From Antedon bifida (taxonomy: Eukaryota; Echinodermata; Crinoidea; Comatulida; Antedonidae), in assembly GCA_963402885.1 (NCBI GenBank), contig OY727102.1, forward strand, positions 11,160,001 through 11,224,000: 64,000 bases of DNA, in the 5' to 3' direction. Made by a program: the position numbers and the translations under genes. Position 1 is the first letter of the stretch, and every line of letters starts with the position of its first letter. The notes below the pieces were generated by a model. The model did not search any database, was not told the DNA's origin, and was given only the letters and a program-made list of their open reading frames with translations. Shown here piece after piece: positions 1 to 64,000 of the stretch.

Positions 1-750
1 GAAATCCGATTTGTCCAAAATGGGGAAATTTTGTCTAAAATAGAGAAATTTTTTAGCAGAAAAATATAATTTTGACAAATTTCTCCAGAATAGAGAAGTG
101 CTGTGTCCAAATTAGAGAAACTACAGTATCCAAGGCCTAATAAATTCGATTTTTCCGAATTGTATAAAAGAGAAACTGTCAAATATGTGCCCAAAATGAC
201 TTACCATTACAAGGATTATGAACTTGGTATTTATAACTATATAATATATAGAAATATAGAGAAATCCGATTTGTCCAAAATGAAGAAATTTCTGTCCAGA
301 ATGGGGAAATGCTGGGTCTGAAATAGAAGCTGTCCAATATAGAGAAATCCGATTTGTCCAACATGGGGAAATTTCTGTCCAGGATGGGGAATTGCTGTGT
401 CCAAAATAAGGAAACTGTCCAATATAGATAAATCCGATTTGTCCAAAATGGGGAAATTTCTGTCCAGGATGGAGAAGTGCTGTGTCCAAAATAGAGCTGT
501 CCAATATAGAGAAATCCGATTTGTCCAAAATGGGGAAATTTTGTCTAAAATAGAGAAATTTTTTAGCAGAAAAATATAATTTTGACAAATTTCTCCAGAA
601 TAGAGAAGTGCTGTGTCCAAATTAGAGAAACTACAGTATCCAAGGCCTAATAAATTCGATTTTTCCGAATTGTATAAAAGAGAAACTGTCAAATATGTGC
701 CCAAAATGACTTACCATTACAAGGATTATGAACTTGGTATTTATAACTAT
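1..750. repeat. Left terminal minisatellite array with a 240-bp direct duplication
   Basis: Related 26-30 bp subunits of the form GTCCAxAATxGGGAAAT make a compound unit of roughly 85 bp. Positions 1-240 recur almost unchanged at 511-750, including a tail that is not part of the array (the CAAGGCCTAATAAATTCGAT region). So a block of about 510 bp was duplicated in tandem. The open frames here, on both strands, are shadows of the repeat. Confidence 0.8.
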
Positions 751-2632
751 AATGATTCATTTTGTATTGGATTTTGATGTTTGCCTATGGCTTAGGTCAG
801 GCGTGGATCATCACATAGCTACTGGTAGCATTGTTAAGCAGATATGCGAAACATCGGGCATAGAAATTGATCAAACATTGGTGTTAAATGCTTATTTAGC
901 ATTTGAAGCTCAATCAAATATCAATGAAGATATGCATTGCAATATATGTGGTTACCATCCCACAATAATGATCATGGATGTGAACAGAAAGGTTCATTTT
1001 AGGACAGCTTTGTCTGAACTTGGCAAGCCTCATGAATGTAAAGAAAAAGTAGATTGCATAGAATTTTATGAACGAGTTAGTTTGCATATACTATCTAGAG
1101 GCCTCGTAAATCCTTTTCCAATAACGGCTGGTCTGAACGAATGGTCTCCGTTTATCGGTGAGCATACAAGAAAAGACAATTTAATTTACAACACAGAATT
1201 CAGGAAAGTTTCAGAAGACGGTAACTTGACTGCTGACTGCAGACATATGAGTGAGGAGAGACTTTTTGAAATGCTCCACCAATCTACTGTGAAGGAAGTC
1301 AAGAAAATAGCTAAAACTATCAATCTTGCATCAAAAGAAAGTAAGTTGGACATTATTTGTAGTATAAGGAAGGCTTTAGCCAAGAACTATTATAATTTCA
1401 ATAAAATAATGAAGAAAATCTGGGGGTGTTCCGGGGGAATATTAACATCACATTGTCCCCATGGAGTAGTCTACGGAATTAAGTTTGTCCTACGAGCAGA
1501 ATCGCCTCGAGATTACACAGACATAATCATGTCAATGAAACATAAGCCAAATATAATAATTGTGGACATGACACACGTTGTTGCAAACTTTGGTAACAAT
1601 TTGCATTATGATGGTCAAACAGAACCAATGTTCTTTCCATTCGAAGGAAGAGAAGCTGATTCTACAGAGGAGAATATTTGGTGTGCAAAAGTTAACACTT
1701 TATTAATAGACATGCCATGGCTTAATGGGCTTCGTGCGACGTCGCAAACCGGGCATGTAACTGGACAAAGCAGCACGTACGCGCTTTTCGACCGATTTCA
1801 TGAGGCTAACACAAATAGTGAAACTGAAATTTTTTTTTAAATTAATTTTGTACCACAATTGAAGTCTAAAACAAATACACAAGTTGCAGAACAATTTTAT
1901 TCCTAATTAAATAAGTCCAAGCATTTTTTAAATGAAATGTCAATAGCGAATCATTTATTTATGGTAAAATCCTTAGTACACCGTCGAAATAATAAATTAA
2001 ATGGAAACCACATTAAGTACATTAACAAGTCGTTCGGTCTGAAAACAACCAAAGATAGTCTTGGAAGACTGATTATTACAACGCCTAAGTCAAGTGTTGT
2101 AGCACAAACGACTGATGAACCCAATGACTGGTGGCTGGAGGAATACCAACTAAGATTACACCATAAAAAGCTTGTAGAAGAGAGACATAATGAGGTAGAT
2201 AATAGGATTATAAATGCCGCCAACATAATTCTAAAGAGAAACTATCCAGAAACATGTGGATTACAAGACACCATCTATCAACAGCAAATGCACAATTTTG
2301 TCAAGACTACACAATATGTTCAGTTTATAAACCTAAGAAACTCGCACTGGATTACAATATCAGACAAGCATTGGTACTTCAATTGCATAAGAATAAAATT
2401 GGTTCCTTATCAATAATAAATATTAATAGTGAAAATGCTGCAGATTCGACGAGTGAATTGCTTAATACTATGGCTCATGAAATGATCCATATGAAAATTT
2501 TTCTTGATGGAATTAGAGATGATCGGCAGCAAGTTTTCATGAAAATGGAAAGAACATCAGTAGCCATAATAAATCAGCACAGCAATTCACCCCTGGTAAA
2601 TTTAAAGGAATACACATTGACAGAATAGTTGC
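728..2632 (+). pseudogene. Decayed transposase, Zisupton/KDZ (HMGXB3 C-terminal-like), with Ulp1-like and SprT-like segments
   Basis: 728-1840 is open for 370 codons. In order it shows a CNICG...DVNRK cysteine segment, a SAP-like helix pair (TVKEVKKIAKTINLASKESK), CSGGILTSHCPHGVVYG, then SPRDYTDI and KHKPNIIIVDMTHVVANFGN, and finally YALFDRFHEANT. These motifs resemble the transposase-derived C-terminal half of HMGXB3-like proteins and the KDZ (Zisupton) group. Homology resumes after a frame change and a stop near 1840-1935 (TQVAEQFYS, LNKSKHFLNEM) and continues in 1937-2416 (ANHLFMVKSLVHRRN), ending in GLQDTIYQQ and VQFINLRNSHWITIS, which look like a C48/Ulp1-type protease fold. A further frame change leads to 2254-2628, which has an HExxH motif (TMAHEMIH). 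At least three breaks make it a pseudogene. The family call is by recalled motifs. Confidence 0.6.
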
Positions 2633-3535
2633 TCACTAATAACATTTGTATAGACACAAAGATTTTGAGAGAAATTTAACCAAAAAAACAAATCTAATTG
2701 AGCATAAACCTTACAGAAAATGCGAAGCACTGGCTGTTAATCATATTTTAATATCAACATAATTATTAGCCCTAAACTATGCCTATTTGGAGTAGGAAAT
2801 AACGCATTTAAAGCACTAATTAATACTACTGTATGTTACAAATATACAAACACTCGTATACTATTGTAAAATGAGAAAAATTAGGCCAAATATTGCACGA
2901 TTTGTCAATGATATCACTTTGTTTATAGCTGAAAATTAATGATTCGGCGTGTACGTTTGATTTTAAATCATTGAGTTACTATAATAACTCAAGGATTCCA
3001 TCATGTGGTCGAAATTCCATGTGGAATTACTGCATGTGACGGTAGATTAATACCCGCGGCCTGTGGTAAAAAAAAACAAAAACAAATAAAGAAAAAATAA
3101 AAAGGATAAAAAGAAGGAAAAGAAGTGACAACATGTATTAAATATATTAATAAATATTCTGTACTCTTACTGATGTGGTATAATAATGGCGGTGTCGGTA
3201 CTACTTTTTTTTTGTGATTTTTATGGTTGGAATTTTATATAATACACTGTAGTTTTTAACGTTAGATAAATGTATAGATTCAGTAAACATTTACTTCAGA
3301 AGTAAATTGGAACCACATCCCTCACTAAATGTTTATTATACTTAAAATTAGCTGATAACGGTGTTAATTAATTAATTAATAGAACACCTTTCCACTTCAA
3401 ATGTACTTGTAAAGTGTTAACATACTAGTACTGTTATTATTATGTACATTTTGTAATGTTTTCAGATTAGAAGTGTGAACTTAATTAAAGTTTTTAAAAC
3501 AAAAAAAAGTTTCTTATGTTGTTTTAATGTTTTGC
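2633..3535. other. Non-coding interior of the transposon
   Basis: AT-rich sequence with frequent stops in all frames, between the decayed transposase and the right array. No gene, RNA or internal repeat was recognised. There is a run of TTAATTAATTAATTAA near 3366. Confidence 0.6.
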
Positions 3536-3539
3536 CTTC

Positions 3540-4020
3540 TCTATATTGTGCAGCTTCCCTATTTTGGACACAGCACTTCTCCATTCTGGACAGAAATTTC
3601 TCCATTTTGGACAAATCGGATTTCTCTATATTAGACAGCTTCCCCATCTTGGACACAGCACTTCCCCATTCTGGACAGAAATTTTCCCATTCTGGACAAA
3701 TCGGATTTCTCTATATTGGACAGCTTCCCTATTTTTGACACAGCATTTCCCCATCCTAGACAGAAATTTCCCCATTTTGGACACGATATAGCGCCACCAC
3801 TTCCCCATCCTGGACAGAAATTTCCCCATTTTGGACACGATATAGCACCACCACTTCCCCATTCTGGACAGAAATTTCCCCATTTTGGACAAATCGGATT
3901 TCTCTATATTGGACAGCTTCCCCATCTTGGACACGATTATAGCGCCACCTATCGCTTTTGTCCTTATTCTGGACAAAATATTTCCCCATTCTGGACAGAA
4001 ATTTCCCCATCTTGGACAAA
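3540..4020. repeat. Right terminal minisatellite array, inverted relative to 1-750
   Basis: Units alternate between ATTCTGGACAGAAATTTC and ATTTTGGACAAATCGG types with TCTCTATATTGGACAGCTTC. A variant with GGACACGATATAGCGCCACC occurs at about 3780, 3835 and 3930. It is the reverse complement of the left array. Open frames on both strands here are repeat shadows. Confidence 0.8.
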
Positions 4021-4459
4021 ATTCACCACACCTATTGCATTTTTACGCTAAAAACAGCCTTTTCTAGTAATTTTACCAATTTTTAAACAATTTCGACTTA
4101 AAATTACGTCATACAAGCACGTCGAATTGGACAATTTGCGTGCATTTTTGAAAAAAACAAATTATGCCTTTTTTTAAACAGTCATAGATTCTAAACTATG
4201 TGGTGAACTTTTTTTTAATTACGTATTCTGGAAGTTGATGAGTTGTAGATATCGGATCATGAATCAATATGGCTAACCGGACATTGTGACATCATCATAT
4301 TGCCACTCGAATATAAAACATAAGATTTTTGTCTCTTTCGTCATAGCTCATCACATTTAATAGAGCGCATCTCCACTTATCCGTATTTCATTTTCCCCCA
4401 TATTTTGATATTGTCTAGGTCAATCAATTATCTTTCGCATGATTTACCATTTTTAAAAT

Positions 4460-18082: not shown

Positions 18083-19176
18083 GGGTGTCTCGAAAACAGA
18101 GACCTCGAAAACAGAGACCAGAGACCCAGGGTCTCTGTTTTCGAGAAAATCTCGAAAACAGAGACCCCCCCCTATATTACGTAATATTGAGACGTTTTAG
18201 TGGGGGTCTCTGTTTTCGAGATTTTCTTGAAAACAGAGACCCCCACTAAAACGTCTCAATATTAAGTCAATATTACGTTATATAGGGGGTCTCTGTTTTC
18301 GAGAAAAACTCGAAAACAGAGACCCCCACTAAAATGTCTCAATATTACGTCAATATTACGTTATATAGGGGGTCCCCACTAAAACGTCTCAAAATCACAG
18401 AATGACGTATCAGTAATAAACGGTAACTGATATGCCTATCAAAGAACATGCCGCAACGATAAGAAGAGATTGATGAATTCTTGAACGCGTGTGAAAAGAC
18501 TGTCATTTTGGAATACAAGGTCGACGTCCTAGAAGTAATATGTATAAATGCATGCTGTGCCTTTTAGAAGCTAAAAAGCGGGAGATTATTTCAAAAGCTG
18601 ACACTAGTTTCGTAACATTTATTTACAAGCATAAAAGATAATAACGTACAATGCAATAACAAAATGATATGAGGTCAGACTTTGAGGCAGACTGGAGGAT
18701 GAAGACAAATATATTGTGTTGGGCGAGCCTTAAAAAAGAAATGAATTAAAAAAAATAAATAAATTGATAAATAAATAAACATAAATTCACGGTTTTTGCG
18801 ATAAAAGTTGGGTTTTAATAATTTATGACCAAGCTCGTTGGTGGGTATTTGCAACACTCTTAATAAACAGGGATTATATTAGGGGGTCTCGGGAAATCTC
18901 GAAAAAATAGACCCCCAATATAATGAGACGTTTTAGTGGGGGTCTATGTTTCGAGTTTTTCTCGAAAACAGAGACCCCTTATATAACGTAATATTGACTT
19001 AATATTGAGACGTTTTAGTGGGGGTCTCTGTTTTCGAGAAAAACTCGAAAACAGAGACCCCCCTATATAATGTATATTGAGACGTTTTAGTGGGGGTCTC
19101 TGTTTTTGAGAAAAACTCGAAAACAGAGACCCCCTATATAACGTAATATTAAAACGTTTTAGTGGGGTCTTTGTTT
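18083..19176. mobile_element. Element with inverted arrays of palindromic GGGTCTCTGTTTTCGAG units
   Basis: Left array 18083-18395 and right array 18880-19176 are reverse complements in design. Each unit is itself a hairpin: GGGGGTCTCTGTTTTCGAG, a 4-6 nt loop, then CTCGAAAACAGAGACCCCC, joined by ACTAAAACGTCTCAATATTA and CGTTATATAGG linkers. The core (18396-18880) has no gene. A 6-bp direct repeat TCACAG flanks it (18077-18082, 19177-19182), which may or may not be a target duplication. Confidence 0.6.
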
Positions 19177-19373: not shown

Positions 19374-21917
19374 TAGGAGAGGGGTGCTGGTCAACCCGTA
19401 CCCAAACCAACCCGTACCCATGCCAACTCGTACCCAACTTGGCTAACCCGTACCCAAATAATTGGTCAACTCGTACCCACTTTGGCTAACCCGTACCCAA
19501 ACCAACCCGTACCCATGCCAACTCGTACCTAAATATTTGGCTTACTCGTACCCAAGTATTTGGCTTACTCGTACCCATTATTTGGCTTACTCGTACCCAT
19601 TATTTGGCTTACCCGTACCCATTTTTGGCTTACTCGTACCCATTATTTGGCCTACTCGTACCCAATTTGAATAATTACTTGTAATGATTTGATCGGCGCA
19701 AAACTAGTGGTATGCTTTTGCCATATGAATATTTCTATATTTAAATTGTTTTTTTATTTTACAGGTCTCGGTGAAATGTGTGCTAATAAAAAAATTAATG
19801 ACCATTGATTTGATTGTAGACTTCGTTTAATTAGGCATATATTTGTTAACATTTATTTAAATGTAGTATTATAGTTTTATAAACGTATGTTTGATGTGTC
19901 TTTTTTATTTACGTAAGAGAACATTAATTAATAAAAAAATATTTTAACTGTTGTATAGTTAGTATTACAATTCAATTAAGCCCAGGTAAAGTACCAACAA
20001 CGTATAATTTTATACTTATCAAATTTTATTCTTTTATTTTATTCTAATTATCTTCCCTGATTACATTCGATCAAGTAATTATTATTTCTATTGTATTGGT
20101 ATATTTAAAATTGGTTGAATTAACAACGCCCTGTTTTAAGCAAAAAGCCTGCAGGGCTATGGGGTCGAATTACTCGTAGATTTCGTGTTACGTGTTTTTG
20201 CTGACCGGGATTAACCTTTTATTATAAAAAACACGCATTTATAGGGCCGGCGTCAAAGAGACGACTCAGTAATGACGTATGATCGTTTTCCATATATTTT
20301 ATTTATTAATAATTCAGTGAAATGATCATATACACGTACTGTCGTACTGTAAGGCAATTATTAAACATTTTGGCAGATTTTCTTCTATAACAGCTACGTA
20401 CGTGTTTTTGCTGAATGGGGATTCCTCTTTAATATTAAAAAAAACGCATTTGTACGGGTCCATTTGTAGTGTGTCCAAAAATAGAAAAACGCAATGTGGC
20501 GTATTTTTTTTCTTAAATAATTCAGTAAAATTATCTGTTTGTTTACGGTAATTAAACATTTTTGGTAGATGTTTCCTCAATAACTTACAGCTACGTGTTT
20601 TTGCTGACAAGGAATTCCCTTTTTAAAAAAAAAATACAAAAATAGACAACGCAATGTGGCGTATGATCGTTTTCTATTTATTTTTTTTCTTAAATAATTC
20701 AGTAAAATTATCTGTTTGTTTACGGTAATTAAACATTTTTGGTAGATGTTTCCTCAATAACTTACAGCTACGTGTTTTTGCTGACGAGGGATTCCCTTTT
20801 TTAAAAAAAAAAACGCATTCTATAATGTGTCAAATAAGACAAATGAATGAACTACGATCGTTTTTCCATGGCAACGGATGTCGTCTTATTTACTAAAATA
20901 ATATAAACGTTCTGAAGGCCTACCTACACGTGTCTGAGTACTTACGTATCTGTCAGCGATAAGATGATTTTTTTAAGTTTGTAGTATTTATTTCGGTTTT
21001 TAGTCATAATAATACAGTAATAATCATTATAAAATGAAAACGTAATAACAGCAAATGTCGTCATTTGTAATTAAATGTTAAATTATTGGGAGGTTACCTT
21101 TGATTATTACTCTCACATCCGTCATTGTATACTAGATAAACGGCAATAATCTAATCTACTACTAAGATGCTCATAGCAGCAATGAGGCTGGTATCAACTT
21201 AAATAGTTTCGTGATTTTAAAATACGAGTGACTACTTAAAAATGTATTAAATATTTTCGAAATGTTAAAACAGTTTAATATTTTCCAAAACTTGCTAAAC
21301 ATAACAACAAAAACCATTCGTTTTAAAACGATTTTAAAAAAGCACCTTACTTCATTATCTGTAAAATAAAATGAAAATACAAATTATGTATAAAAGATAT
21401 TCATGTTTACTTTTAATAATTCAAGTTTTCATCATCACAGTGTTTCAATGTCCGTGTACTACTATTCGTAGAAAATAATAGATTAATAACTCATAAATGA
21501 AAAAAAATAGAATGCAGCACAGCCGACCACTGACATCTTCCAGAGCCATATAAAACAGCGCCCTCAAGTATTAACTTGACCAAATACGACGTACGCAAAT
21601 ACGATGAAAGCTGTGCTTTTTTCGTACGAGTCTGTACATATTATTATACTTTTTAGGTCAATAGTTTTTGCCATTATAATATCGAACATAGGATTGGTAT
21701 CTAAAAATTTAATAAAACTGGGTTTAAATGTAATAACTAATATAAATATACTTTAAATAGCATTAAACTTGGGTACGGGCCAGCCAATGATGGGTACGGG
21801 TCAGCCAATGATGGGTACGGGTCAGCCAAAATTTTGGGTACGAGTAAGCCGAAATTTGGGTACGAGTTGGTGGGTACGAGTTGGCATGGGTACGGGTTGA
21901 CCAGTATTCTAGGAGAG
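19374..21917. mobile_element. Element ending in inverted CCCGTACCCA arrays, with 8-bp target duplication
   Basis: The left array (19382-19670) consists of 20-23 bp units such as TTGGCTTACTCGTACCCA. The right array (about 21769-21909) is its inverse, with GGGTACGGGTCAGCCAATGA and GGGTACGAGTTGG. The outer ends match: GGGTGCTGGTCAACCCGTAC on the left against GAATACTGGTCAACCCGTAC on the right (inverted), differing only by transitions. TAGGAGAG flanks both ends (19374-19381, 21910-21917). The interior has no transposase, so it is non-autonomous. Confidence 0.8.
20191..20890. repeat. Four tandem units of about 180-210 bp inside the 19.4-21.9 kb element
   Basis: Each unit starts with CGTGTTTTTGCTGA at 20191, 20401, 20594 and 20771. 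It continues with GGATTCCCTTT, an A-run, ACGCAT, TATGATCGTTTTC and an AATAATTCAGTAAAATTA part. Units 3 and 4 are the most alike. The 94-codon minus frame (20610-20326) is a shadow of the repeat. Confidence 0.75.
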
Positions 21918-31912: not shown

Positions 31913-31914
31913 GG

Positions 31915-33330: not shown

Positions 33331-33489
33331 AAAACAAAGACGAATGGACCCTTCCTCTCTCCATCTTCGTTAACGATTACTATAGTAATTCATAGGTCAG
33401 TTGACACAAGGGAATCTAACAACATTGTCTTGGTTGACACTACATCAGGTAGTGTGAGATTAGTACTATAACGTGTAGAATTTGAAGAA

Positions 33490-33909
33490 AATATTATTTC
33501 GAGGGAACGAAATATTATTTCGAGGGAACGACATAATATTTCGAGGGAACGAAATATTATTTCGAGGGAACGAAATATTATTTCTATCTAGGGAACGAAT
33601 AATATTTCGAGTGAACGAAATAATATTTCGAGGTAACGAAATAATATTTCGAGGGAACGAAATAATATTTCGAGGGAACGAAATAATATTTCGAGGAAAC
33701 AAAATAATATTTCAAGGGAACGAAATAATATTTCGAGGGAACGAAATGATTTCGAGGGAACGAAATGATTTCGAGGGAACGAAATAATATTTCGAGGGAA
33801 CGAAATAATATTTCGAGGAAACGAAATGATTTCGAGGGAATGAAATAATATTTCGTTCCCTCGAAATAATATATATTTTTTTTAACTAATGTCACTTTAC
33901 GGGCTCCGG
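33490..33909. repeat. 21-bp array CGAGGGAACGAAATAATATT (copy B)
   Basis: About 17 units, same orientation as copy A, again with an inverted unit at the right and the shared tail ACTAATGTCACTTTACGGGC. Two same-direction copies flank the transposase remnant. Confidence 0.85.
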
Positions 33910-39300: not shown

Positions 39301-39640
39301 TTTGTAATTTTTGGTACTTAAAAAAGTATGAAAAACAGAAGTCGCTGTGTTTTTTGGTATGGTGCTATATAAAGAGATGTATGTATGATCCAGTGCTGTT
39401 AATGAAAGGGATGATAAACTAGTTTAGTTGCATTATTTAGTTCAATTAAATGACGGATGCGAAGAAGGAGATTTTAATGTTTTGGTTGGTGAATATATAT
39501 CAAAATATAGAGAAACTGATAATAAGTTCTGTAGAGTATTTGTTTGTATCAATTGCCGGTTTAATTTGTATTCACTTTTTGATTTACATTATGTACAACT
39601 ACAGTCAACTTAATTGAAATCTGACTTTGGAAAAAGTATT
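36390..39640. other. About 3.2 kb without a recognised gene
   Basis: AT-rich sequence with no array, inverted repeat or convincing exon. The 65-codon minus frame at 37287-37090 has a mixed composition but no recognised motif. Part of it may be 3' UTR of the nucleoporin-like locus. Confidence 0.4.
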
Positions 39641-39641
39641 G

Positions 39642-42600
39642 GTATTACAGTGCTGTGGTTGGCAATGTTACACCATGGACCTATAAATTAATGTCCATGG
39701 TATTACAGTGCTGTGGTTGGCAATGTTACACCATAGAGCTATACATTAATGTCCATGGTATTACAGTGCTGTGGTTGGCAATGTTACACCATGGACCTAT
39801 AGATTAATGTCCATGGTATTACAGTGCTGTGGTTGGCAATGTTACACCATGGACCTATAAATTAATGTCCATGGTATTACAGTGCTGTGGTTGGAAATGT
39901 TACACCATAGACCTATAAATTAATGTCCATGGTATTACAGTGCTGTGGTTGGCAATGTTACACCATGGACCTATAAATTAATGTCCATGGTATTACAGTG
40001 CTGTGGTTGGCAATGTTACACCATGGACCTATAAATTAATGTCCATGGTATTACAGTGCTGTGGTTGGCAATGTTACACCATGGACCTATAAATTAATGT
40101 CCATGGTATTACAGTGCTGTGGTTGGCAATGTTACACCATAGACCTATAAATTAATGTCCATGGTATTACAGTGCTGTGGTTGGCAATGTTACCATGGAC
40201 CTATAAATTAATGTCCATGGTATTACAGTGCTGTGGTTGGCAATGTTACACCATGGACCTATAAATTAATGTCCATGGTATTACAGTGCTGTGGTTGGCA
40301 ATGTTACACCATGGACCTATAAATTAATGTCCATGGTATTACAGTGCTGTGGTTGGCAATGTTACACCATGGACCTATAGATTAATGTCCATGGCATTAC
40401 AGTGCTGTGGTTGGCAATGTTACACCATGGAGCTATACATTAATGTCCATGGTATTACAGTATTGTGGTGGACAATGTTACACCATGGAGCTATAAATTA
40501 ATGTCCATGGTATTACAGTGCTGTGGTTGGCAATATTACACCATGGAGCTATAAATTAATGTCCATGGTATTACAGTATTGTGGTGGACAATGTTACACC
40601 ATGGAGCTATACATTAATGTCCATGGTATTACAGTGCTGTGGTTGGCAATGTTACACCATGGACCTATAAATTAATGTCCATGGTATTACAGTGCTGTGG
40701 TTGGCAATATTACACCATGGACCTATAAATTAATGTCCATGGTATTACAGTATTGTGGTGGACAATGTTACACCATGGAGCTATAAATTAATGTCCATGG
40801 TATTACAGTACTGTGGTTGGCAATATTACACCATGGAGCTATAAATTAATGTCCATGGTATTACAGTATTGTGGTGGACAATGTTACACCATGGAGCTAT
40901 ACATTAATGTCCATGGTATTACAGTGCTGTGGTTGGCAATGTTACACCATGGACCTATAAATTAATGTCCATGGTATTACAGTGCTGTGGTTGGCAATAT
41001 TACACCATGGACCTATAAATTAATGTCCATGGTATTACAGTGCTGTGGTTGGCAATGTTACACCATGGACTTATAAATTAATTTCCATGGTATTACAGTG
41101 CTGTGGTTGGCAATGTTACACCATGGACCTATAAATTAATGTCCATGATATTACAGTGCTGTGGTTGGCAATGTTACACCATGGACCTATAAATTAATGT
41201 CCATGGTATTACAGTGCTGTGGTTGGCAATGTTACACCATGGACCTATAAATTAATGTCCATGGTATTACAGTGCTGTGGTTGGCAATGTTACACCATGG
41301 ACCTATAAATTAATGTCCATGGTATTACAGTGCTGTGGTTGGCAATGTTACACCATGGACCTATAGATTAATGTCCATGGTATTACAGTGCTGTGGTTGG
41401 CAATGTTACACCATGGAGCTATACATTAATGTCCATGGTATTACAGTATTGTGGTGGACAATGTTACACCATGGAGCTATAAATTAATGTCCATGGTATT
41501 ACAGTGCTGTGGTTGGCAATATTACACCATGGAGCTATAAATTAATGTCCATGGTATTACAGTATTGTGGTGGACAATGTTACACCATGGAGCTATACAT
41601 TAATGTCCATGGTATTACAGTGCTGTGGTTGGCAATGTTACACCATGGACCTATAAATTAATGTCCATGGTATTACAGTGCTGTGGTTGGCAATATTACA
41701 CCATGGACCTATAAATTAATGTCCATGGTATTACAGTATTGTGGTGGACAATGTTACACCATGGAGCTATAAATTAATGTCCATGGTATTACAGTATTGT
41801 GGTGGACAATGTTACACCATGGAGCTATACATTAATGTCCATGGTATTACAGTGCTGTGGTTGGCAATATTACACCATGGAGCTATAAATTAATGTCCAT
41901 GGTATTACAGTATTGTGGTGGACAATGTTACACCATGGAGCTATACATTATTGTCCATGGTATTACAGTGCTGTGGTTGGCAATGTTACACCATGGAGCT
42001 ATAAATTAATGTCCATGGTATTACAGTGCTGTGGTTGGCAATATTACACCATGGAGCTATAAATTAATGTCCATGGTATTACAGTATTGTGGTGGACAAT
42101 GTTACACCATGGAGCTATACATTAATGTCCATGGTATTACAGTGCTGTGGTTGGCAATGTTACACCATGGACTTATAAATTAATGTCCATGGTATTATAG
42201 TGCTGTGGTTGGCAATGTTACACCATGGACCTATAAATTAATGTCCATGATATTACAGTGCTGTGGTTGGCAATGTTACACCATGGAGCTATAAATTAAT
42301 GTCCATGGTATTACAGTATTGTGGTGGACAATGTTACACCATGGAGCTATACATTATTGTCCATGGTATTACAGTGCTGTGGTTGGCAATGTTACACCAT
42401 GGAGCTATAAATTAATGTCCATGGTATTACAGTATTGTGGTGGACAATGTTACACCATGGAGCTATATATTAATGTCCATGGTATTACAGTGCTGTGGTT
42501 GGCAATATTACACCATGGAGCTATAAATTAATGTCCATGGTATTACAGTATTGTGGTGGACAATGTTACACCATGGAGCTATAAATTAATGTCCATGGTA

Positions 42601-43276
42601 TTACAGTGCTGTGGTTGGCAATTTTACACCATGGACCTATACATTAATGTCCATGGTATAGTGCTGTGGTTGGCAATATTACACCATGGACCTATAAATT
42701 AATGTCCATGATATTACAGTATTGTGGTGGACAATGTTACACCATGGAGCTATAAATTATTGTCCATGGTATTACAGTATTGTGGTGGACAATGTTACAC
42801 CATGGAGCTATACATTAATGTCCATGGTATTACAGTATTGTGGTGGACAATGTTACACCATGGAGCTATACATTAATGTCCATGGTATTACAGTGCTGTG
42901 TTTGGCAATGTTACACCATGGAGCTATACATTAATGTCCATGGTATTACAGTGCTGTGGTTGGCAATGTTACACCATGGAGCTATACATTAATGTCCCTG
43001 GTATTACAGTATTATGGCCGACAATGTTACATCATGGACCTATAAATTAATGTCCATGGTATTACAGTGCTGTGGTTGGCAATGTCACACTATGGACCTG
43101 TAAATGAATGTCCATGGTATTACAGTGCTGTGGTTGGCAATGTTACACCATGGACCTATAAATTAATGTCCATGGTATTACAGTGCTGTGGTTGGCAATG
43201 TTACACTATGGACCTGTAAATGAATGTCCATGGTATTACAGTGCTGTGGTTGGCAATGTTACACTATGGACCTGTA
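39642..43276. repeat. 58-bp satellite, about 62 units, with two unit types
   Basis: Consensus is GTATTACAGTGCTGTGGTTG, GCAATGTTACACCATGGACC, TATAAATTAATGTCCATG. A second type has ATTGTGGTGGACAATGTTAC and CATGGAGC. The first part (to about 40400) is almost all type 1. From about 40440 to 42950 the types alternate in blocks of a few units that recur, indicating higher-order repeats. The last units (from about 43000) are the most diverged. Frames at 42319-42934 are shadows. Confidence 0.95.
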
Positions 43277-43419
43277 ACACTCAAAGCTGTAATTACAAAG
43301 GACACAGTAAAAACATATCAAATTATGATCAGTTGTGTATGTTTAATACTCCATTCTGAGTATGAATACTGATAAGTGTATAACAATATTATTTTAATTC
43401 AATTCTATGCAGCATTTGA

Positions 43420-50930: not shown

Positions 50931-51748
50931 GTCACGCGCGCAGAGACTTCGCGATCTATGAATTCACCGCGCTGAAGTTCGCATTGTTGAAATCGATATC
51001 ACACGCATTATAGTAGAGCAGTTAGTGCCATAAAAATAGCCAAGTTGTGCACTTTATTACCAAAGCATGAAACTTGCCACAAAGTTTCTTTGATGTATAT
51101 AGATTAAAAATATCGGGGGGTGCCAAGTGTCCAACGTCCGGTATGGCGGCCATCTTGATTTCAAAATGGCCACCATAAAAACAAAAAGTGCTCATATCTT
51201 GGCAACTATAAACAGTAGAGACTTGATTCTGGTGTTAAATTGTTCACAAACCACATATTTCTATTTGCTCTAATGAAAATTTTCGTCAAAAAATGACCGG
51301 AAATGACGTTTCTCCCAGTTTGACCTTTGACCTCTTATCTGTATATCTCAGTAACTACTGATCATTTTCAATCGATTTTGGTGTCATTTTGTTCAGAATA
51401 GAGACATTTATATTCGTAGTAATGAAACATTTTCACATAAAATGACTGGAAATACAATTTATAACCTTTGACATATATAATATGTGAACATACTGTATGT
51501 GGTTTACATTGGTATAAATGCACCTAATTTTTTTTAACGAAATAAATGACACTGCAAAAATGACCAGGAATTATTATTCTGAATTTTTGACTTTTGATGT
51601 GATAGGATAGGCGTAAAGTATGACAGATCACTGAGAAACAGCAATCACTGAGCTCATCTATGCCGACTTGTTTGCTAAACTGTGATGTGTCAATCGTTAG
51701 ATAAAAGTTTTGGTCCTCTCTCCATCATCTTTTTTTTTTTGCAATGTA

Positions 51749-52093
51749 TTATACCATATGGACAATTGTCTGAAATAAAAGTTGAATTGAATTGTTAGAT
51801 GCCATTTGGAAATATTTTTGATGTAAAGTAGCATTCTTTCGTTGGCCTCTTTGATGTTGCATATGAGACAAGTTCGGAAAGTTTTCATTTTCATGAGTTA
51901 AAAGAATACCGTCTTTCAAAGTACTTACTACAAACTTATCCTGCATTTGTGCAGTAGACCTACTTTCATTAGTCAGAAACTCAGATAATTCTTGTTCATT
52001 TTCGTTGCATCTAAAAAAATGTACTCCATTTTTATGGTAATGGGCCTTTGCTGTAAACCATCTGAATCCTTTTCCTCGATTTTCTCTACTCAT
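51749..52093 (-). CDS. Unrecognised 114-codon frame inside the long-TIR element
   Basis: MSRENRGKGFRWFTAKAHYH, then KNGVHFFRCNENEQELSEFL and so on. Mixed composition, basic and aromatic at the N-terminus; no known motif. It could be a remnant of the element's own protein, or chance. No splice signals decide. Confidence 0.25.
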   Translation of the reverse strand: MSRENRGKGFRWFTAKAHYHKNGVHFFRCNENEQELSEFLTNESRSTAQMQDKFVVSTLKDGILLTHENENFPNLSHMQHQRGQRKNATLHQKYFQMASNNSIQLLFQTIVHMV

Positions 52094-52309
52094 TGATTTT
52101 TTAGCAAAATCCGAACCAAATCAATTCGTAAAAGACATCTTAATATAATTATTCAAGTAATTCTCAAATTAGTGACATGGACCTACAATATACTGTTCTG
52201 TACAAGACCTTTTTAGGCATCCACCTGTGGACTTTCACTTTGAAGGTCTTGGTCTCCTAATCATACAAGTAAAGAAACAATGTCTGATTTAATCAATCAA
52301 AGTAGTGGG

Positions 52310-53445
52310 TCCAGACAAAGAAGGGGGTATAAGACCATCCACAGACAAAGAAGGGGGTATAAGACCATCCACAGACAAAGAAGGGGGTATAAGACTATCC
52401 ACAGACAAAGAAGGGGTGTAAGACCATCCACAGACAAAGAAGGGGGTGTAAGACCATCCACAGACAAAGAAGGGGGTATAAGACCATCCACACACAAAGA
52501 AAGAGGTGTAAGGCCATCTACAGACAAAGAAGGGGGTGTAGGACCATCCACAGACAAAGAAGGGGGTGTAAGACCATCCACACACAAAGAAAGGGGTGTA
52601 AGACCATCCACACACAAAAAAAAGGGGTGTAATACCATCAACAGACAAAGAAAGGGGTGTAATACCATCAACAGACAAGGAAGGGGATATAAGACCGTCC
52701 ACAGGCACAGAAGGGGTGTAAGACCGTCCACAGACAAAGACAGGGGTGTAAGACCGTCCACAGACAAAGAAGGGGGTGTAGGACCGTCCACAGACAAAGA
52801 AGGGGGTGTAAGACCACCCACTGACAAAGAAAGGGTATAGGACCACTTACAGACAAAGAAGGGGGTATAAGACCATCCACAGACAAAGAAGGTGATGTAG
52901 GACCATCCACAGACAAAGAAGGGGGTGTCGGACAATCCACAGACAAAGAAGGGGATGTAAGACCACCCACAGACAAAGAAGGGGGTGTAAGACCATCCAC
53001 ACACAAAGAAGGGATTATAAGACCATCTACAGACAAAGAAGGGGGTATAAGACCATCCACAGACAAAGAAGGGGGTATAAGACCATCCACAGAGAAAGAA
53101 GGAGGTGTAAGACCATCCACAGACAAAGAAGGAGTGTAAGACCATCCACACACAAAGAAAGGGGTGTAATACCATCAACAGACAAAAAAAGGGGTTTAAT
53201 ACCATCTACATACAAAGAAAGGGGTGTAAGACCATCCACAGACAAAGAAGCGGGTATAAGACCATCCACAGACAAAGAAGGCGGGTATAAGACCATCCAC
53301 AGACAAAGAATCAGGTATAAGACCATCCACAGACGAAGAAGCGGGTATAAGACTATCCACAGACAAAGAAGGGGGGTATAAGACCATCCACAGACAAAGA
53401 ATGGGGTATAAGACCATCTACAGACAAAGAAGGAGGGGTAGGACC
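52310..53445. repeat. 30-bp minisatellite, about 38 units
   Basis: Unit is GACAAAGAAGGGGGTATAAG plus ACCATCCACA, with variants GGGTGTAAG and CACACAAAG. Because the period is a multiple of three, both strands stay open for hundreds of codons (up to 302). All these frames are shadows. Confidence 0.95.
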
Positions 53446-54469
53446 ATATTACCGAGGAAGCATAGGCCTACAAAAAGACGATGCAATCAAAATAGGCCTA
53501 CCACTTGGAAAACAATAAATTGTAGAATAACTGAGGCTTGATTGTTGAAATATAAAGGTTTCTTTGTAAGGTCATTAATAATATATTGATATAAACACGA
53601 TCATCATACTATTCATTTGACATTCAAATACAGTCTATCTCGAAAAGAAGCTCATGCTATCACCTTTTCGAGGTTTTACGGTATTCCATAACATGTATGT
53701 TATTTCCTCTGTCAAACTATTAAAACTTTTAGCGAATCAGAAGGTGCCACCATCATTTAACTAATGGTACCACCAAGCACAATGTTTACCAATTTTATGT
53801 ACTATATACAATTTAAGTCCATTAATTATTTAATATAATTACGCCTATCAGGTCAAAGTTCAAAATTAGGTGCATTTAAGACCACCAAAAACCACATACA
53901 GTATATTCACATAATTAAAAATCAATAATTAAATGTCAAAGGTCATAAATTGTATTTCCAGTCATTTTATGTGAAAATGTTTCATTACTACAAATATAAA
54001 TGTATTTATTCTGAACAAAATGACACCAAAATCGATTGAAAATGACCAGTAGTTACAGAGATATACAAATACGAGGTCAAAGGTCAAACTGAAAGAAACG
54101 TCATTTCCGGTCATTTTTGGACGAAAATTTTCATTAGAGCAAATAGAAATATATAGTTTGTGAACAATTTGAGACCAGAATTAAGTCTCTAATGTGTATA
54201 GTTGCCAAGATATGAACATTTTTTGTTTTTATGGTGGCCATTTTAAAATCAAGATGGCCGCCATACCGGACGTTGGACACTTGGCACCCCCCGATATTTT
54301 GAATCTATATACATTATAGAAACTTTGTGCCAAGTTTCATGCTTTGGTAATAAAATGCACAGCTCATGTCATTAACTGCTCTACTATTATGTATCTCTGC
54401 TGCTTGTTTCAATTCCCAACTTCAACGCGGTGAATTCGGTCACTGGCGCCCCCCGCGCGGCGTGCAAAA

Positions 54470-55320: not shown

Positions 55321-55369
55321 TATTTAGTATGGCAAGCCTCAGCTGTCTGAAGTATTCAAAATATTATAT

Positions 55370-55680
55370 TATTTATCATTTTTTTTTTATATTATATATT
55401 GTATTGTAATGAATTATACGTTTTGCATTATATTACTTGGTTTTAGCATTATATTATATCTATTTCTAATATATTATGTGAAAAATGTAACAAATTATTG
55501 ACTTTTTGTATTATATTATTCGGTTTTTGCATTATATTATGAACATTTACTATTATATTATTAATAAAATACATTATATTATAATATAATTGTATTATAT
55601 TAAACCCATTTACCTTACTTTATAACATACAACATTATTATATTATACGGATTCGTTAGTTATATTATTATTTTGTATGA
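55370..55680. repeat. Subterminal ATTATATTA-rich zone of the palindrome
   Basis: Many spaced copies of ATTATATTA, mirrored at about 62020-62320 and repeated at 62480-62810. Subterminal motif clusters of this kind often serve as transposase binding sites; that role here is inference. Confidence 0.55.
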
Positions 55681-56144
55681 TGTTTATTATACGTCACGGC
55701 TCATTTCAGTTCTTCTAACTCTTTCTCTCCCTCCCCCTGTTCACTAGCAATCAGCGGCAGAATCTGAATTGTGTGACTGTTGAAGAATAACTACTACGTA
55801 CTAGGCCTAGCCTAGGCCTACTAGGGGATCTAGCCTAGACGTAGCTAGTTAGACAAGTGACCAAGGACCACCGGACAGCTACAACTAATACTACAATACA
55901 ATAATACTACTAATGCAATAACTACTACTGCTAATACTTAGGCCTAGCTAGTAGAGTACTAGGTAGGTTAGCTACTACTAGGCTCTAGGGGGTTAGGGCG
56001 TATGTATGATGTTAACTACTAGGCCTAGGCCTACTAGTACTAGCCTAGGCTAGGCCTAGACTTAAGTTGTAGTAGGCTAGGGCCGGGCCTGCTGCCTTAG
56101 GCTAGGCTAGGCTACTACTACTACTACTACTACTACTAGGCAGC

Positions 56145-56245
56145 CAGCCCATGATGGTTACGAGTAAGCCAAAATTTTGGATATAAGTAAACCAAAATTT
56201 GGGTACGAGCGAGTTGGCATGGGTACGGGTTGACATGTATCCTTC
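56145..56245. repeat. Short GGGTACGAGT array in the palindrome left arm
   Basis: Contains AGCCCATGATGGTTACGAGT, TTGGGTACGAGCGAGTTGGC and ATGGGTACGGGTTGAC. This matches the right terminal array of the 19.4-21.9 kb element. Mirror copy at about 61485-61570 and a third at about 63240-63335. Confidence 0.8.
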
Positions 56246-59200
56246 TTTCTAGCTAATCGTACTAGGCCTAGGCCTCAAGTAAGTCTACGCTACCCAGTCC
56301 GGCTACAATATGGTCTATTTTGTTTTATAGCTTTATTGATAGCTGGGTTCAAATCTGGGTTGGGACGGCTTTTTCTCATTCTAAAACATTCCTTATCATA
56401 ATAAAATAATATATGAATTTATTTGTAATAGTACCTAGGCCCTAATTGCCATTGCATTTATTATTATTAATTATATATTATACGGTTACCCCTTAATTAA
56501 TTATACTATAGTATAATTTCCTTGTTATATTTTACAATATTTTCTTTATAATTCTACAATTTTGTCTTTCACAGCACAAATTTATCATACTGTATTTGTC
56601 CAAGCTACTCCAGCTACATGGTATTGCCTTGAGGCTAAACTACACGGTATACTGGCACTACCATCATTCCTGGCTCGTCAACCTGGACCACATAAGCACA
56701 GTTTCAGTTTCAGTTTATTTACCATTTCAATTTCTGAACATAAGAGATGAACAACTTATATGGATGGATAACCATAAGAGCGAAGCTCGTTTACCGGTCA
56801 CCCGTTAGTGCAGTGACATTACGGACAACATAAAGACAGGACAAAGGTGCAATACATAACAAGACATGTGAACACTTGTGTTTGCAACCCCTTGGATAAA
56901 ATAATATATTTATATAAAGGAGAAAGATAGATATTATAATATTTCTTTTTTATCATACAATACATAGTACCTATTGGTATTATATCTAAAAATACAAAGG
57001 CGGCTAACACAGATAGTTCCATATATACAGTACTCTCTTATAAATAGATGTATCTCTCCAATCTACCTAATCTAATAATAGTACTATTAGCATACTACTA
57101 TACACTTTGTAGACAAGAAGTAAGTTGTATACACCTAGAGGACTTATGGTAGTACAGTCGAACGCCCTCTCACTGGCCCGGTCAACATAATCTATACCTA
57201 GATTATTACAGTAATTAAAGTACATTATTACAGAGATTTTTTTTTTTTTTTTGCAGAAATCAAAGTTATGTGTATAGAAAGCAGTACTCGTATTAAAAAC
57301 TAAGCAGGTTGTACTCTTGAACGCAAACTGGCAGGATATTTTGAATATTTTTTATTGTTGAAATGAATGGAATCCTAACTTCTTTGCAACAACTGGAGAC
57401 GAAGACATATTATGACCCTTTTATTTAAATTTATTTGAATAGACCTTCATGTAAATTCATTAAAGGCTATATGTTTGTTTTATATTTTAATATGTGATAG
57501 TAGAAAATCATTGTGTATAATGAGGACTAAGAATCTGATATTCACTTGCATTCTCATCTTTTAAAAATTTTATTTATAATGCTGGTAATGAGTTTAAAAT
57601 TTAATTATATTGACTAGTTTTGATAATCATTATGTCCTTATAAATTCATTTATATTTCTTTTGTGTAATATAGTTCATATATTATGTATTGAATAAATTG
57701 GTAAGGCCCTATACTGTTATTATTTAAGGAAAGTTTATATACACTTATTTTATGCCTACTTAGTATTAATTGTTTATATAAATATTTTGTCTAATTGCCT
57801 TGATTTTTTGTATAGGCCAATGGCATCAATGTTTTTGTCAACGCAAATTAGCCTAATAATGCCACATTTAAACACATGATTCATTGATTTCTGATATTCT
57901 GTACTTGAGTATGCATTACTAAAATAACCAAGTAGTTAATATATTTCATTTGTAATGTATGTATAAACATTAAGTTTTTTTTCACATTTTTAAATTTAAA
58001 AATTATTACAATACCTACCTCTCTGATATTGTTACTATTGTATAATATATTTTGAGGCAGCAATAAAAAAAAATTAAAACAATTAATTTGACTTATACTG
58101 TACTATGTTAGTTCAGGATATGAAATGTGTGTGGGCATCTGGTGTGTTGGAGGTTGGTGGTGTGAGGTGTATATTTGTCACTTTAAGACCTAAATTAGAT
58201 GTTTTCTGAAGAAAAGAAGTAAGAGGATACGCTTTCAAACAATTCCAAGAAGATTCACACAAAAATAATTACTTTCCAATAAAATAGTATAACAGTGTAT
58301 ATTACAGTACATTGAATAAACTCGAGCGGAAAAATAACGCACATAAAAAAACACTCATATTCTTGTCGAAAAGTGCCCTCTATAGTTTTCTATTAATTTA
58401 TTAATAATTATTATTAATTAATGAGTAATATGAACATATTTTTAACATTCAATGCTGGAAACTGGTTCTACTCCTAACAAAGTTTCATACCTCCAAATTT
58501 CATCAACGTATTCAAAGCACTTCAATATTAAATATCACATTTAACATAAAAAATTCGGGTTTTGGATAGAATTTTGCTTAAAAACATATACAAAAAACAT
58601 CGATAAAAAATACTTTTCGTATTAAAAAACAGATGATACTTGGTATAAATGTTCACTATAGGTTGCTCTATTCACAGAAACAAAATTGCATTCATGAACT
58701 TTTTTGTTGGTTGTTTTTTCAAAATAGTTATTAGCTTGAAAAAAATGAGTTGGAATTGTATAGTCTTTCATAAGTGTACATTTTGTAAAAACGTAAATTT
58801 AAAAAATCAGTGATATGGCTTGATAGTTAATTTTTTTTTTGCAATATGGATGGAGCAACCTATATTGAACATATATACCAATTATCAAATGTTTTTGAAT
58901 ACGAAAAGTATTTTTTATCGATGTTTTTTGTATATGTTTTTAAGCAAAATTCTATCAAAACCTGGATTTGTAATGTTAAATGTGATATTTATTTAAGTGC
59001 TTTGAATACGTTGATGAAATTTGGAGGTATGAAACTTTGTTAGGATTAGAACCAGTTTCCAGCATTGAATGTTAAAAATATGTTCATATTACTCATTAAT
59101 TAATAATAATTATTAATAAATTAATAGAAAACTAGAGAGGGCACCTTTCGACAAGAAAATGAATGTTTTTTTATGTGCGTTATTTTTCCGCTCGAGTTTA

Positions 59201-60876
59201 TTCAATGTACTGTAATATACACTGTTATACTATTTTATTGGAAAGTAATTATTTTTGTGTGAATCTTCTTGGAGTTGTTTGAAAGCATATCCTTTTACTT
59301 CTTTTCTTCAGAAAACATCTAATTTAGGTCTTAAAGTGACAAATATACACCTCACACCAGATTCTGCCCACACACACTTCATCTCCTGAACTAACATAGT
59401 ACAGTATAAGTCAAAATAATTGTTTGTTACAATTTTTTTTTATTGAAAACAATCTGCCTCAAAAAATATCATACAATAGTAACAATATCAGAAAGGTAGG
59501 TATTGTAATAATGTTTAAATTTAAAAATGTGAAAAAAAAATGAATGTTTATACATACATTACAAATGAAATATATTAACTACTAGGTTATTTTAGTAATG
59601 CATACACAAGTACAGAATATCAGAAATCAATGAATCATGTGTCTAAATGTGGCATTATTAGGCTAATTTGCTTTGAGAAAAACATTGATGCCATTGGCCT
59701 ATACGAAAAATCAAGGCAATTAGACAAAATATTTATATAAACAATTATACTAATATTGGTAGGCATAAAATAAGTGTATATAAACTTTCCTTAAATAATA
59801 ACAGTACAGGGCCTTACCAATTTATTTAATACATAATATATGAACTATATTACACAAAAGAAATGTAAATGAATTTATAAGGACATAATTATTATCAAAA
59901 CTAGTCAATATAATTAAATTTTAAACTCATTACCAGCATTATAAATAAAATTTTAAAAAGATGAGAATGCAAGTGAATATCAGATTCTTAGTCCTCATTA
60001 TACACAATAATTTTCTACTATTAGTATCACATATTAAAATATAAAACAATCATGTAGCCTTTAATTAATTTACATGGAGGTCTATTCAAATAAATTTAAA
60101 TAAAAGGGTCATAATATGTCTTCGTCTCCAGTTCGTAGAAAATGAAGTTAGGATTCCATTCATTTCAACAATAAAAAATATTCAAAATATCCTGCCAGTT
60201 TGCGTTCAAGAGTACAACCTGCTTAGTTTTTAATACGAGTACTGCTTTCTATACACATAACTTTGATTTCTGCAACAAAAAAAAAATCTCTGTAATAATG
60301 TACTTTAATTACTGCAATAATCTAGGTATAGATTATGTTGACCGGGCCAGTGAGAGGGCGTTCGACTGTACTACCATAAGTCCTCTAGGTGTATACAACT
60401 TACTTCTTGTCTACAAAGTGTATAGTAGTATGCTAATAGTACTATTATTAGATTAGGTAGTTGGGAGTAGATTGGAGAGATACATCTATTTATAAGAGAG
60501 TACTGTATATATGGAACTATCTGTGTTAGTTGCCTTTGTATTTTTAGTTATACTGTAATACCAATAGGTACTGTGTATTGGGATGCAATTCAACAGTTAT
60601 GAATAAAAATAGTCCTATGTACTCTGTATGTGGAAATAAGCATAAGAGCAAGTCTTGACCACAGGGTGTAAGTCAGTCACTATTTTGAATCAGTAGTATG
60701 ACTTCTTAGGATTTAATTAATTTTAAAATTATCATTGTATGATCGAAAAGAAATATTATAATATCTAACTTTCTCCTTTATATAAATATATTATTTTATC
60801 CAAGGGGTTGCAAACACAAGTGTTCACATGTATTGCACCTTTGTCCTGTCTTTATGTTGTCCGTAATGTTACTGCA

Positions 60877-61158
60877 CTAACGGGTGACCGGTAAACGAGC
60901 TTTGCTCTTACGGTTATCCATCCATATAAGTTGTTCATCTCTTATGTTCAGAAATTGAAATGGTAAATAAACTGAAACTGAAACTGTGCTTATGTGGTCC
61001 AGGTTGACGAGCCAGGAATAATGGTAGTGCCAGTATACCGTGTAGTTTAGCCTCAAGGCAATACCATGTAGCTGGAGTAGCTTGGACAAATACAGTAGAA
61101 ATTTATGAGACTTGGTGTGTGATGATTCAGTATGATAAATTTGTGCTGTGAAAGACAA
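60877..61158 (-). other. 93-codon frame kept in the palindrome arms
   Basis: MSFTAQIYHTESSHTKSHKF, then LLYLSKLLQLHGIALRLNYT and so on, stop after LPVTR. The same frame is open at 63669-63944 (91 codons, two residues shorter in an SV repeat) and interrupted by a missing stretch at 56562-56808. It is preceded by an acceptor-like GTCTTTCACAG. No known family. May be only a product of the recent duplications. Confidence 0.35.
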
Positions 61159-62446
61159 AATTGTAGAATTATGAAGAAAATATTGTAAAATATAACAAGG
61201 AAATTATACTATAGTATAATTAAGGGGTAACCGTATAATATATAATAAATAATAATAAATGCAATGGCAATTACTTATATTATGTATACATTACAATATT
61301 ACAAATAAATTCATATATTATTTTATTATGATAAGGAAATCTGTTTTTGAATGACAAAAAGCCATCCCAACCCAGATTTGAACCCAGCTATCAATAAAGC
61401 TATAAAACAAAATAAACCATATTGTAGCCGGACTGGGTAGCGTAGACTTACTTGAGGCCTAGTACAATTAGCTAGAAGGATACAGGTCAACCCGTACCCA
61501 TGCCAACTCGCTCGTACCCAAATTTTGGTTTACTTATCCAAAATTTTGGCTTACTCGTACCCATCATGGGCTGACTGCCTAGTAGTAGTAGTAGTAGTAG
61601 CCTAGCCTAAGGCAGCAGGCCCGGCCCTAGCCTACTACAACTTAAGTCTAGGCCTAGCCTAGTACTAGTAGGCCTAGGCCTAGTAGTTAACATCATACAT
61701 ACGCCCTAGAGCCTAGTAGTAGCTACCTAGTACTCTACTAGCTAGGCCTAGGTAGTAGCAGTATTAGTTATTGTAGTAGTATTATTGTATTGTAGTATTA
61801 GTTGTAGCTGTCCGGTGGTCCTTGGTCACTTGTCTAACTAGCTACGTCTAGGCTAGATCCCCTAGTAGGCCTAGGCCTAGTACGTAGTAAAAATAATTAG
61901 TTATTCTTCAACAGTCACACAATTCAGATTCTGCCGCTGATTGTTAGTGAGCAGGGGGAGGGAGAGAAAGAGTTAGAAGAACTGAAATAAGTCGTGACGT
62001 ATAATAAACATCATACAAAATAATAATATAACTAACGAATCCGTATAATATAATAATGTTGTATGTTATAAAGTAAGGTAAATGCGTTTAATATAATACA
62101 ATTATATTATAATATAATGTATTTTATTAATAATATAATAGTAAATGTTCATAATATAATGCCAAAACCGAATAATATAATACAAAAAGTCAATAATTTG
62201 TTACATTTTTCACATAATATATTAGAAATAGATATAATATAATGCTAAAACCAAGTAATATAATGCAAAACGTATAATTCATTACAATACAATATATAAT
62301 ATAATAAAAAAATGATATAATAATATAATATTTTGAATACTTCAGACAGCTGAGGCTTGCCATAATTTAGTCTCTGTTGAACCTGATTATATTGTAAAAA
62401 GAGGCTGTATAACTTTTAAAAAATAAAAAAATATTATTTATTTTAT

Positions 62447-64000
62447 TATGGCAAGCCTCAGCTGTCTGAAGTATTCAAAATATTATATTATTATATCATT
62501 TTTTTATTATATTATATATTGTATTGTAATGAAATATACGTTTTGCATTTTATTACTTAGTTTTAGCATTATATTATATCTATTTCTAATATATTATGTG
62601 AAAAATGTAACAAATTATTGACTATTTGTATTATATTATTCGGTTTTGGCATTATATTATGAACATTTACTATTATATTATTAATAAAATACATTATATT
62701 ATAATATAATTGTATTATATTAAACGCATTTACCTTAATTTATAACATACAACATTATTATATTATACGGATTCGTGAGTTATATTATTATTTTGTATGA
62801 TGTTTATTATACGTCACGACTTATTTCAGTTCTTCTAACTCTTTCTCTCCCTCCCCCTGTTCACTAGCAATCAGCGGCAGAATCTGAATTGTGTGACTGT
62901 TGAAGAATAACTAATTATCTTTACTACGTACTAGGCCTAGGCCTAGGCATGGAGCTACTAGGGGATCTAGCCTAGACGTAGCTAGTTAGACAAGTGACCA
63001 AGGACCACCGGACAGCTACAACTAATACTACAATACAATAATACTACTACAATAACTACTACTGCTACTACCTAGGCCTAGCTAGTAGAGTACTAGGTAG
63101 CTACTACTAGGCTCTAGGGCGTATGTATGATGTTAACTACTAGGCCTAGGCCTACTAGTACTAGGCTAGGCCTAGACTTAAGTTGTAGTAGGCTAGGGCC
63201 GGGCCTGCTGCCTTAGGCTAGGCTACTACTACTACTAGGCAGTCAGCCCATGATAGGTACGAGTAAGCCAAAATTTTGGATAAGTAAACCAAAATTTGGG
63301 TACGAGCGAGTTGGCATGGGTACGGGTTGACCTGTATCCTTCTAGCTAATCGTACTAGGCCTAGGCCTCAAGTAAGTCTACGCTACCCAGTCCGGCTACA
63401 ATATGGTTTATTTTGTTTTATAGCTTTATTGATAGCTGGGTTCAAATTTGGGTTGGGATGGCTTTTCTCATTCTAAAACAGATTTCCTTATCATAATAAA
63501 ATAATACTGTATATGAATTTATTTGTAATATTGTAATGTATACATAATATAAGTAATTGCCATTGCATTTATTATTATTAATTATATATTATACGGTTAC
63601 CCCTTAATTATACTATAGTATAATTTTCTTGTTATATTTTACAATATTTTCTTCATAATTCTACAATTTTGTCTTTCACAGCACAAATTTATCATACTGA
63701 ATCATCACACACCAAGTCTCATAAATTTCTACTGTATTTGTCCAAGCTACTCCAGCTACATGGTATTGCCTTGAGGCTAAACTACACGGTATACTGGCAC
63801 TACCATCATTCCTGGCTCGTCAACCTGGACCACATAAGCACAGTTTCAGTTTATTTACCATTTCAATTTCTGAACATAAGAGATGAACAACTTATATGGA
63901 TGGATAACCGTAAGAGAGAAGCTCGTTTACCGGTCACCCGTTAGTGCAGTGACATTACAGACAACATAAAGACAGGACAAAGGTGCAATACATAACAAGA
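62447..64000. mobile_element. Second copy of the palindromic element, left arm, cut by window end
   Basis: Starts TATGGCAAGCCTCAGCTGTC and follows the left arm of 55328-58690 closely: AT-rich zone, AGGCCTAG runs, GGGTACGAGT array at about 63240-63335, and the conserved frame at 63669-63944. It begins 76 bp after the 6-bp duplication that follows the first copy. It resembles the right arm of copy 1 in keeping the stretch TCATCACACACCAAGTCTCA. Confidence 0.85.

Follow-up and report, generated by a model that had tools for sequence, protein, structure and literature searches.

The 64,000-nucleotide stretch of the Antedon bifida genome analysed here (contig OY727102.1, positions 11,160,001 to 11,224,000; C15:11160001-11224000 in the numbering used below, and referred to as the window) raises the question of why elements with different sequences end in the same way, namely in inverted arrays of short repeats. 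A preliminary description proposed that they are autonomous and non-autonomous members of one mode of transposition, and knew of no class to which such array-ended elements would belong. Most probably, three of these elements, termed A, C and D, represent separate cut-and-paste DNA transposon families that acquired a foldback layout of their ends by convergence. The class is thus a described one, that of the foldback elements (PMC4079207; PMC3169594), which were initially described from Drosophila and have since been recorded in rye, Arabidopsis, sea urchin and a midge (PMC4079207). In A, C and D alike, a tip of 5-10 bp that is unequal between the two ends is followed by an inverted array of short repeats and then by the core. 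Sequence patterns and protein profiles were searched over the 315.6-Mb assembly (27 contigs), and all counts from these searches are lower bounds.

For element A, both protein-coding copies and short derivatives were seen. In the window it consists of the following features:

1 to 4037, plus strand: element A, a KDZ-like foldback transposon, delimited by its ends and its target-site duplication; the leftmost 379 bp, from C15:11159621, lie outside the window.
1 to 630, plus strand: in-window part of the left array, ~20-bp units TGTCCAAAATGGGGAA... with higher-order 54/85-bp repeats, detected by Tandem Repeats Finder (TRF).
710 to 1837, plus strand: open stretch forming the middle part of the KDZ-like transposase gene, with a 98% match to the 377-aa frame of copy L046.
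1907 to 2625, plus strand: further open stretches, protease-like by eye, with a SprT-like end.
3537 to 4022, minus strand: right array, inverted with respect to the left one (TRF; inverted repeats I11, I16 and I25).
4038 to 4045, no strand: right target duplication CATTTTTA, 8 bp and exact; the left copy is beyond the window.

The full window copy (locus L045) is 4417 bp long and extends from window position -379 to 4037, and its outer ends, GAGACGGGTT.../...ACACCTATTG, recur in copies elsewhere in the genome. The 10-base tips of the two ends are unequal (GAGACGGGTT vs CAATAGGTGT), while the next 90 bases match with one mismatch; behind the tips the whole left arm holds 28 units and the right arm 18. 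Twelve of the 14 A-related loci were examined (the partial matches L055 and L058 were left out), of which six are single-ended, and L053 and L054 were merged with L052 as one insertion, leaving four independent insertions. All four are flanked by an exact 8-bp duplication (CATTTTTA, CGCTTTTG, GGAAGAGC and GTCTGAGC). Copies with common ends fall into a coding-size class of 4.4-4.7 kb and a short class of ~2.66-2.68 kb, so that the expected coexistence of autonomous-size and short forms is borne out within A itself. The short form (2656-2683 bp) corresponds to the insertion L052, which L053 and L054 repeat within duplicated flanks, and copy L047 appears by eye to be enlarged by a retrotransposon-like insertion.

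Element C and its target duplications occupy three consecutive intervals:

19374 to 19381, no strand: left target duplication of C, TAGGAGAG, exact 8 bp.
19382 to 21909, no strand: element C, 2528 bp; each end carries an array of CGTACCCA units, with 13 of them on the left and 7 on the right.
21910 to 21917, no strand: right target duplication of C, TAGGAGAG, exact 8 bp.

The tips of the window copy of C are unequal at three of the first five bases, and the arrays come next. Fourteen C loci were examined; three are single-ended (L016, L020 and L059), and the 11 with both ends represent eight independent insertions once L015, L018 and L019 are merged with L012, while L010, L011, L013 and L014 were left out as the same copies as L059-L062. 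Exact duplications abut six of the eight insertions, with a length of 8 bp in four and of 9 bp in two. The arrays themselves vary, with 7-13 units in the left arm and 3-8 in the right over nine copies, and they change after insertion, since L012 and L018 share their flanks, and thus a single insertion, yet have 11 and 7 left units, respectively. Two further arrangements of C were seen on C11. Many C copies lie at steps of ~30 kb on one strand of C11:11174237-11648542, and those that were read have common flanks, so that this series is probably a segmental amplification. At C11:13870811-13873417, two inverted left halves of C form a hairpin derivative (observed from the coordinates only).

Element D is shorter and built from a different unit:

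30565 to 31165, no strand: element D, 601 bp, of the size of a miniature inverted-repeat transposable element (MITE), with arrays of ~15-16-bp near-palindromic units GGGACGATTCGGCCC.

Its tips in the window copy are unequal at three of the first six bases. The inverted orientation of the arrays is supported by TRF and by the spacing of the pattern matches; because the unit is near-palindromic, the arms cannot be told apart by unit counting. Twelve D loci were examined, two of them single-ended (L036 and L040), and the ten with both ends reduce to eight independent insertions after merging L038 with L037 and L041 with L042; for L043, which has two candidate left ends, the 599-bp version was taken. 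An exact duplication is present at four of the eight, 9 bp long in three of them and 8 bp in the fourth, and the duplication of L041 has diverged to an exact match of 3 bp (same insertion as L042). A possible duplication of L036, a 9-bp match CTAGCTAGA on both sides seen by eye with the start placed inside the D array, was not used, as the flank is a CTAG run. The loci chosen for C and D are the top-scoring members of larger families and not a random sample.

Taken together, the preliminary borders were exact for C, one base off for D, and had to be moved for A, whose left end lies beyond the window. Target duplications of 8-10 bp had been claimed for two elements of the window; the window copies of A and C have exact ones of 8 bp each, and the window copy of D has only a 10-bp flank match that is displaced by one base. 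The expectation that full-length copies share 8-bp duplications is borne out for A, and for C and D only in part of the insertions and at 8-9 bp. Two traits by which foldback elements are recognised were found here: inverted tandem-repeat ends vary between copies in A and C, judged by unit counts, and duplications abut fixed outer ends in A (4/4), C (6/8) and D (4/8).

These duplications bear on the possibility that the arrays are independent satellite expansions which flank unique cores by chance and are not mobile. When flanks were swapped between insertions, with one row per insertion, matches of 8 bp or more were absent (0/12 for A, 0/56 for C and 0/56 for D). Before the rows were merged, 4 of 28 swapped pairs of A had 8 bp, which on reading are L052-L054 with their shared duplicated flanks. 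Out of 200,000 random borders, placed at the lengths of the elements within the window and within the longer loci, 7 reached 8 bp for full-length A, 129 for the short form of A, 32 for C and 471 for D; we attribute the higher figures to tandem and duplicated sequence. Furthermore, the array pattern of C was found at at least 74+78 places and that of D at at least 598+565 places, both over many contigs, with no match to either pattern when reversed, so that chance does not account for these arrays. The clustering of C copies ~30 kb apart on C11 resembles segmental duplication and would suit the satellite reading, as would the finding that foldback repeats can become satellites, as in Tetris (PMC4079207). 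A, C and D, which have defined borders with common outer tips and target duplications that abut them, are thus transposons and not satellites, as had been anticipated, and we consider the satellite reading extremely improbable. It may still apply to a fourth element of the window:

18083 to 19176, no strand: element B, inverted arrays of palindromic 72-83-bp units around a short core.

Four close copies of B are present in the genome, and three of them have the left border GGTGTCTCGAAAACAGAGACC in common; no right border common to the four was seen by eye, and the flanks of the window copy are similar over 6 bp at most (TCACAG). Its description as an array-ended element is therefore upheld at the left border only, and B cannot be assigned as a transposon.

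If A, C and D are transposons, the next question is which proteins move them. The KDZ assignment of A comes from a cysteine cluster associated with KDZ transposases, CxC4, which was found with 28.1 bits (cut-off 26.9) in the frame 3-2282 of copy L050, whereas the related profile CxC5 stayed under its cut-off there (22.9 bits; cut-off 26.9). The window stretch 710-1837 gave no curated family match above cut-off; the window copy is damaged, with ~670 bp missing at 2376 that are present in L046, L048, L049 and L050. In the genome, CxC4 is present at at least three places, namely in L050 and in relatives of A on C10 and C8, while the control genomes gave none. The frame of L046 had at least 19 genome matches, and this search includes a broken relative with 42% identity at C8:18687242. 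The relative on C10 (C10:8178613-8179704) is 61% identical to the A fragment and has an open frame of 1464 aa, with CxC4 at C10:8179618-8179908. A single-sequence AlphaFold model of L050:900-2282 had a mean predicted local distance difference test score of 30.8 and was discarded. A second domain lies at the end of the gene: a SprT-like metalloprotease end sits on the KDZ-like transposon gene in the window (2206-2625), at L046:4190-4495 and at L050:2231-3691, scoring above the cut-off of 25.6 bits in L046 (29.1) and L050 (26.6) and under it in the window copy (16.3). The A proteins also contain what we take, by eye, to be a SWIM-like motif, a C48-like protease pattern and a PHD-like finger, none of which was reported by Pfam. 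The 8-bp duplications of A, found in all four insertions, have the length stated for Zisupton, which also has terminal inverted repeats (TIRs) (PMC12730594); the nematode Zisupton elements described in one study showed no target duplications (PMC9297572). We are confident, short of certainty, that A represents a KDZ/Zisupton-like family with target duplications of 8 bp, comprising both protein-coding copies and short derivatives. It would move by cut-and-paste through its own transposase. Judged from its sequence, A is KDZ-like, and identity with Zisupton is unproven; the earlier assignment to a KDZ-type gene is borne out by CxC4.

Several results weigh against this account of the three families. 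The KDZ catalytic model PF18758 had zero matches in the A proteins and zero in the whole genome, and the control genomes likewise gave zero. In the five copies of A with listed frames, the gene is split across more than one frame, so that an active element was not seen. Exact duplications are lacking in two of the eight C insertions (L017 and one common to the C11 cluster) and in half of the D insertions, three of the eight having no duplication at all. Moreover, neither C nor D could be linked to a transposase. C, for which one frame was tested without a Pfam family match, is apparently non-autonomous, and D looks non-autonomous. Longer facing pairs were present among the places listed, which cover 100 of 152 array places for C and 100 of 1163 for D. 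For C these are 5.8-9.3 kb apart (C7:24437716/24447058, C7:18001502/18010270 and C10:6620368/6626136), and for D they are C1:20089458/20092011 and C1:24293343/24296565; such pairs could be autonomous candidates or two separate copies. Inspected by eye, these three C and two D intervals contain no match to CxC4 or the A protein, and none of the at least 33 MULE (Mutator-like element) matches of the genome; the hAT dimer (at least 39 matches) and the Merlin IS1595-type DDE (at least 18) are also without a match inside them. These were the families covered, and P-type transposases were not searched.

The same intervals speak to the proposal of one mode, according to which A, B, C and D, whether autonomous or not, all depend on related KDZ-type transposases and have fast-changing arrays. 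All of them indeed have the same layout, A encodes a KDZ-type protein, and four of the six exact C duplications are 8 bp long, as in A. By contrast, the array units of the four families are no more alike than shuffled sequences (scores of 5 to 6, reached by 96-277 of 300 shuffles), the lengths of the exact duplications differ (8 bp for A, either 8 or 9 bp for C, and 9 bp for three of the four of D, with none seen for B), and the CxC4 places lie outside the listed C and D intervals. A single mode therefore appears very unlikely.

In the model that we favour instead, with A, C and D as separate families, the transposase would bind several array units at once, in analogy to Galileo, so that the array would supply both affinity and specificity, while the outer tip would set the cut position. 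Unequal exchange would keep altering the number and the sequence of the units. C and D would be moved by other transposases, and a MULE-type enzyme is a first guess because of their 8-9 bp duplications and unequal tips. A more specific form of this guess, which is compatible with separate families and would name the transposase, regards C and D as Mutator (Phantom-like) foldback elements of the Tm1 kind. Short unequal tips outside inverted arrays, together with duplications of 8-9 bp, agree with Tm1 (PMC3169594), and MULE genes are present in the genome, but all of the MULE matches fall outside the listed long C and D intervals; we regard this assignment as possible but rather doubtful. With slightly less reserve, and still tentatively, we suggest that KDZ-like transposases adopted the foldback layout independently, that the A transposase needs an array of sites to recognise the ends, and that several transposase superfamilies converged on this layout simultaneously in one genome. 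The layout itself is known and has evolved repeatedly; any novelty is limited to a foldback family that is KDZ-like and has short derivatives of its own.

The window contains further repeats, one of which had been grouped with the array-ended elements:

55328 to 62364, no strand: element E, a palindrome of ~7 kb with AT-rich subterminal repeats and ends TATGGCAAGCC...

The palindrome and its subterminal repeats were recovered as described, but the ends are not repeat arrays; the flanks match weakly, over 6 bp (ATTTAG), and a second inverted copy begins at 62447. A tandem array of ~63 copies of a 58-bp unit occupies 39640-43277. At 51043-54364, inverted arms of 435 nt that are 94% complementary enclose a 30-bp x 38 tandem array, a layout with the arms outside and the array inside, the reverse of that of foldback elements. 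The region at 31.5-33.9 kb was considered as a further array-ended element and rejected, as it appears to consist of a single segment present twice in direct orientation; each copy within 31581-33859 has an array of the 21-bp unit AACGAAATAATATTTCGAGGG, closed by a flipped unit, and similar downstream sequence. Outside the window, the loci L024 and L065 share a similar short element that starts with TTAAAGATRTATTGTCC, ends with GGACAATACATCTTTAA and has by eye the look of a TTAA-site MITE.

Foldback-like elements are not necessarily kin, and P-type and MULE-type cases and a similar Tc1/mariner-like one have been cited (PMC3169594). Close in layout is Tm1, a MULE foldback family of root-knot nematodes whose 7-bp tips are unequal and whose duplications measure 8-10 bp, mostly 9 bp (PMC3169594). 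It too has composite ends with a varying number of a ~14-bp repeat, tips outside the inverted repeat, and coding as well as MITE-like forms; its transposase is of MULE type, whereas A is KDZ-like and no MULE is tied to C or D in the listed intervals. Tetris of Drosophila virilis is likewise a foldback element with tandem repeats in its ends, 8-10 bp duplications and no transposase found, but its TIR-220 repeats gave rise to a satellite, and its authors assign it to Mutator (PMC4079207). Zisupton/KDZ elements share with A the 8-bp duplications and the KDZ-associated CxC4; on the other hand, array ends are not mentioned in the available portions of PMC12730594 and PMC9297572, and A lacks a PF18758 match. 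In the literature examined, which did not cover the first Zisupton paper, a foldback family of KDZ type was not described. A KDZ-like case would join the P, MULE and Tc1/mariner-like groups with repeat-array ends and would lend weight to the view of arrays as a general route to end specificity. In Galileo, a member of the P superfamily in Drosophila, a site for the THAP domain of the transposase was mapped close to the end by footprinting, and the tandem repeats proved to contain further such sites (PMC3688188). Its long ends are internally repetitive, as they are here; its transposase is P-type, and the A protein is KDZ-like. With coding copies of A, short derivatives and a long-frame relative in one genome, the idea of multi-site binding would become testable outside the P superfamily.

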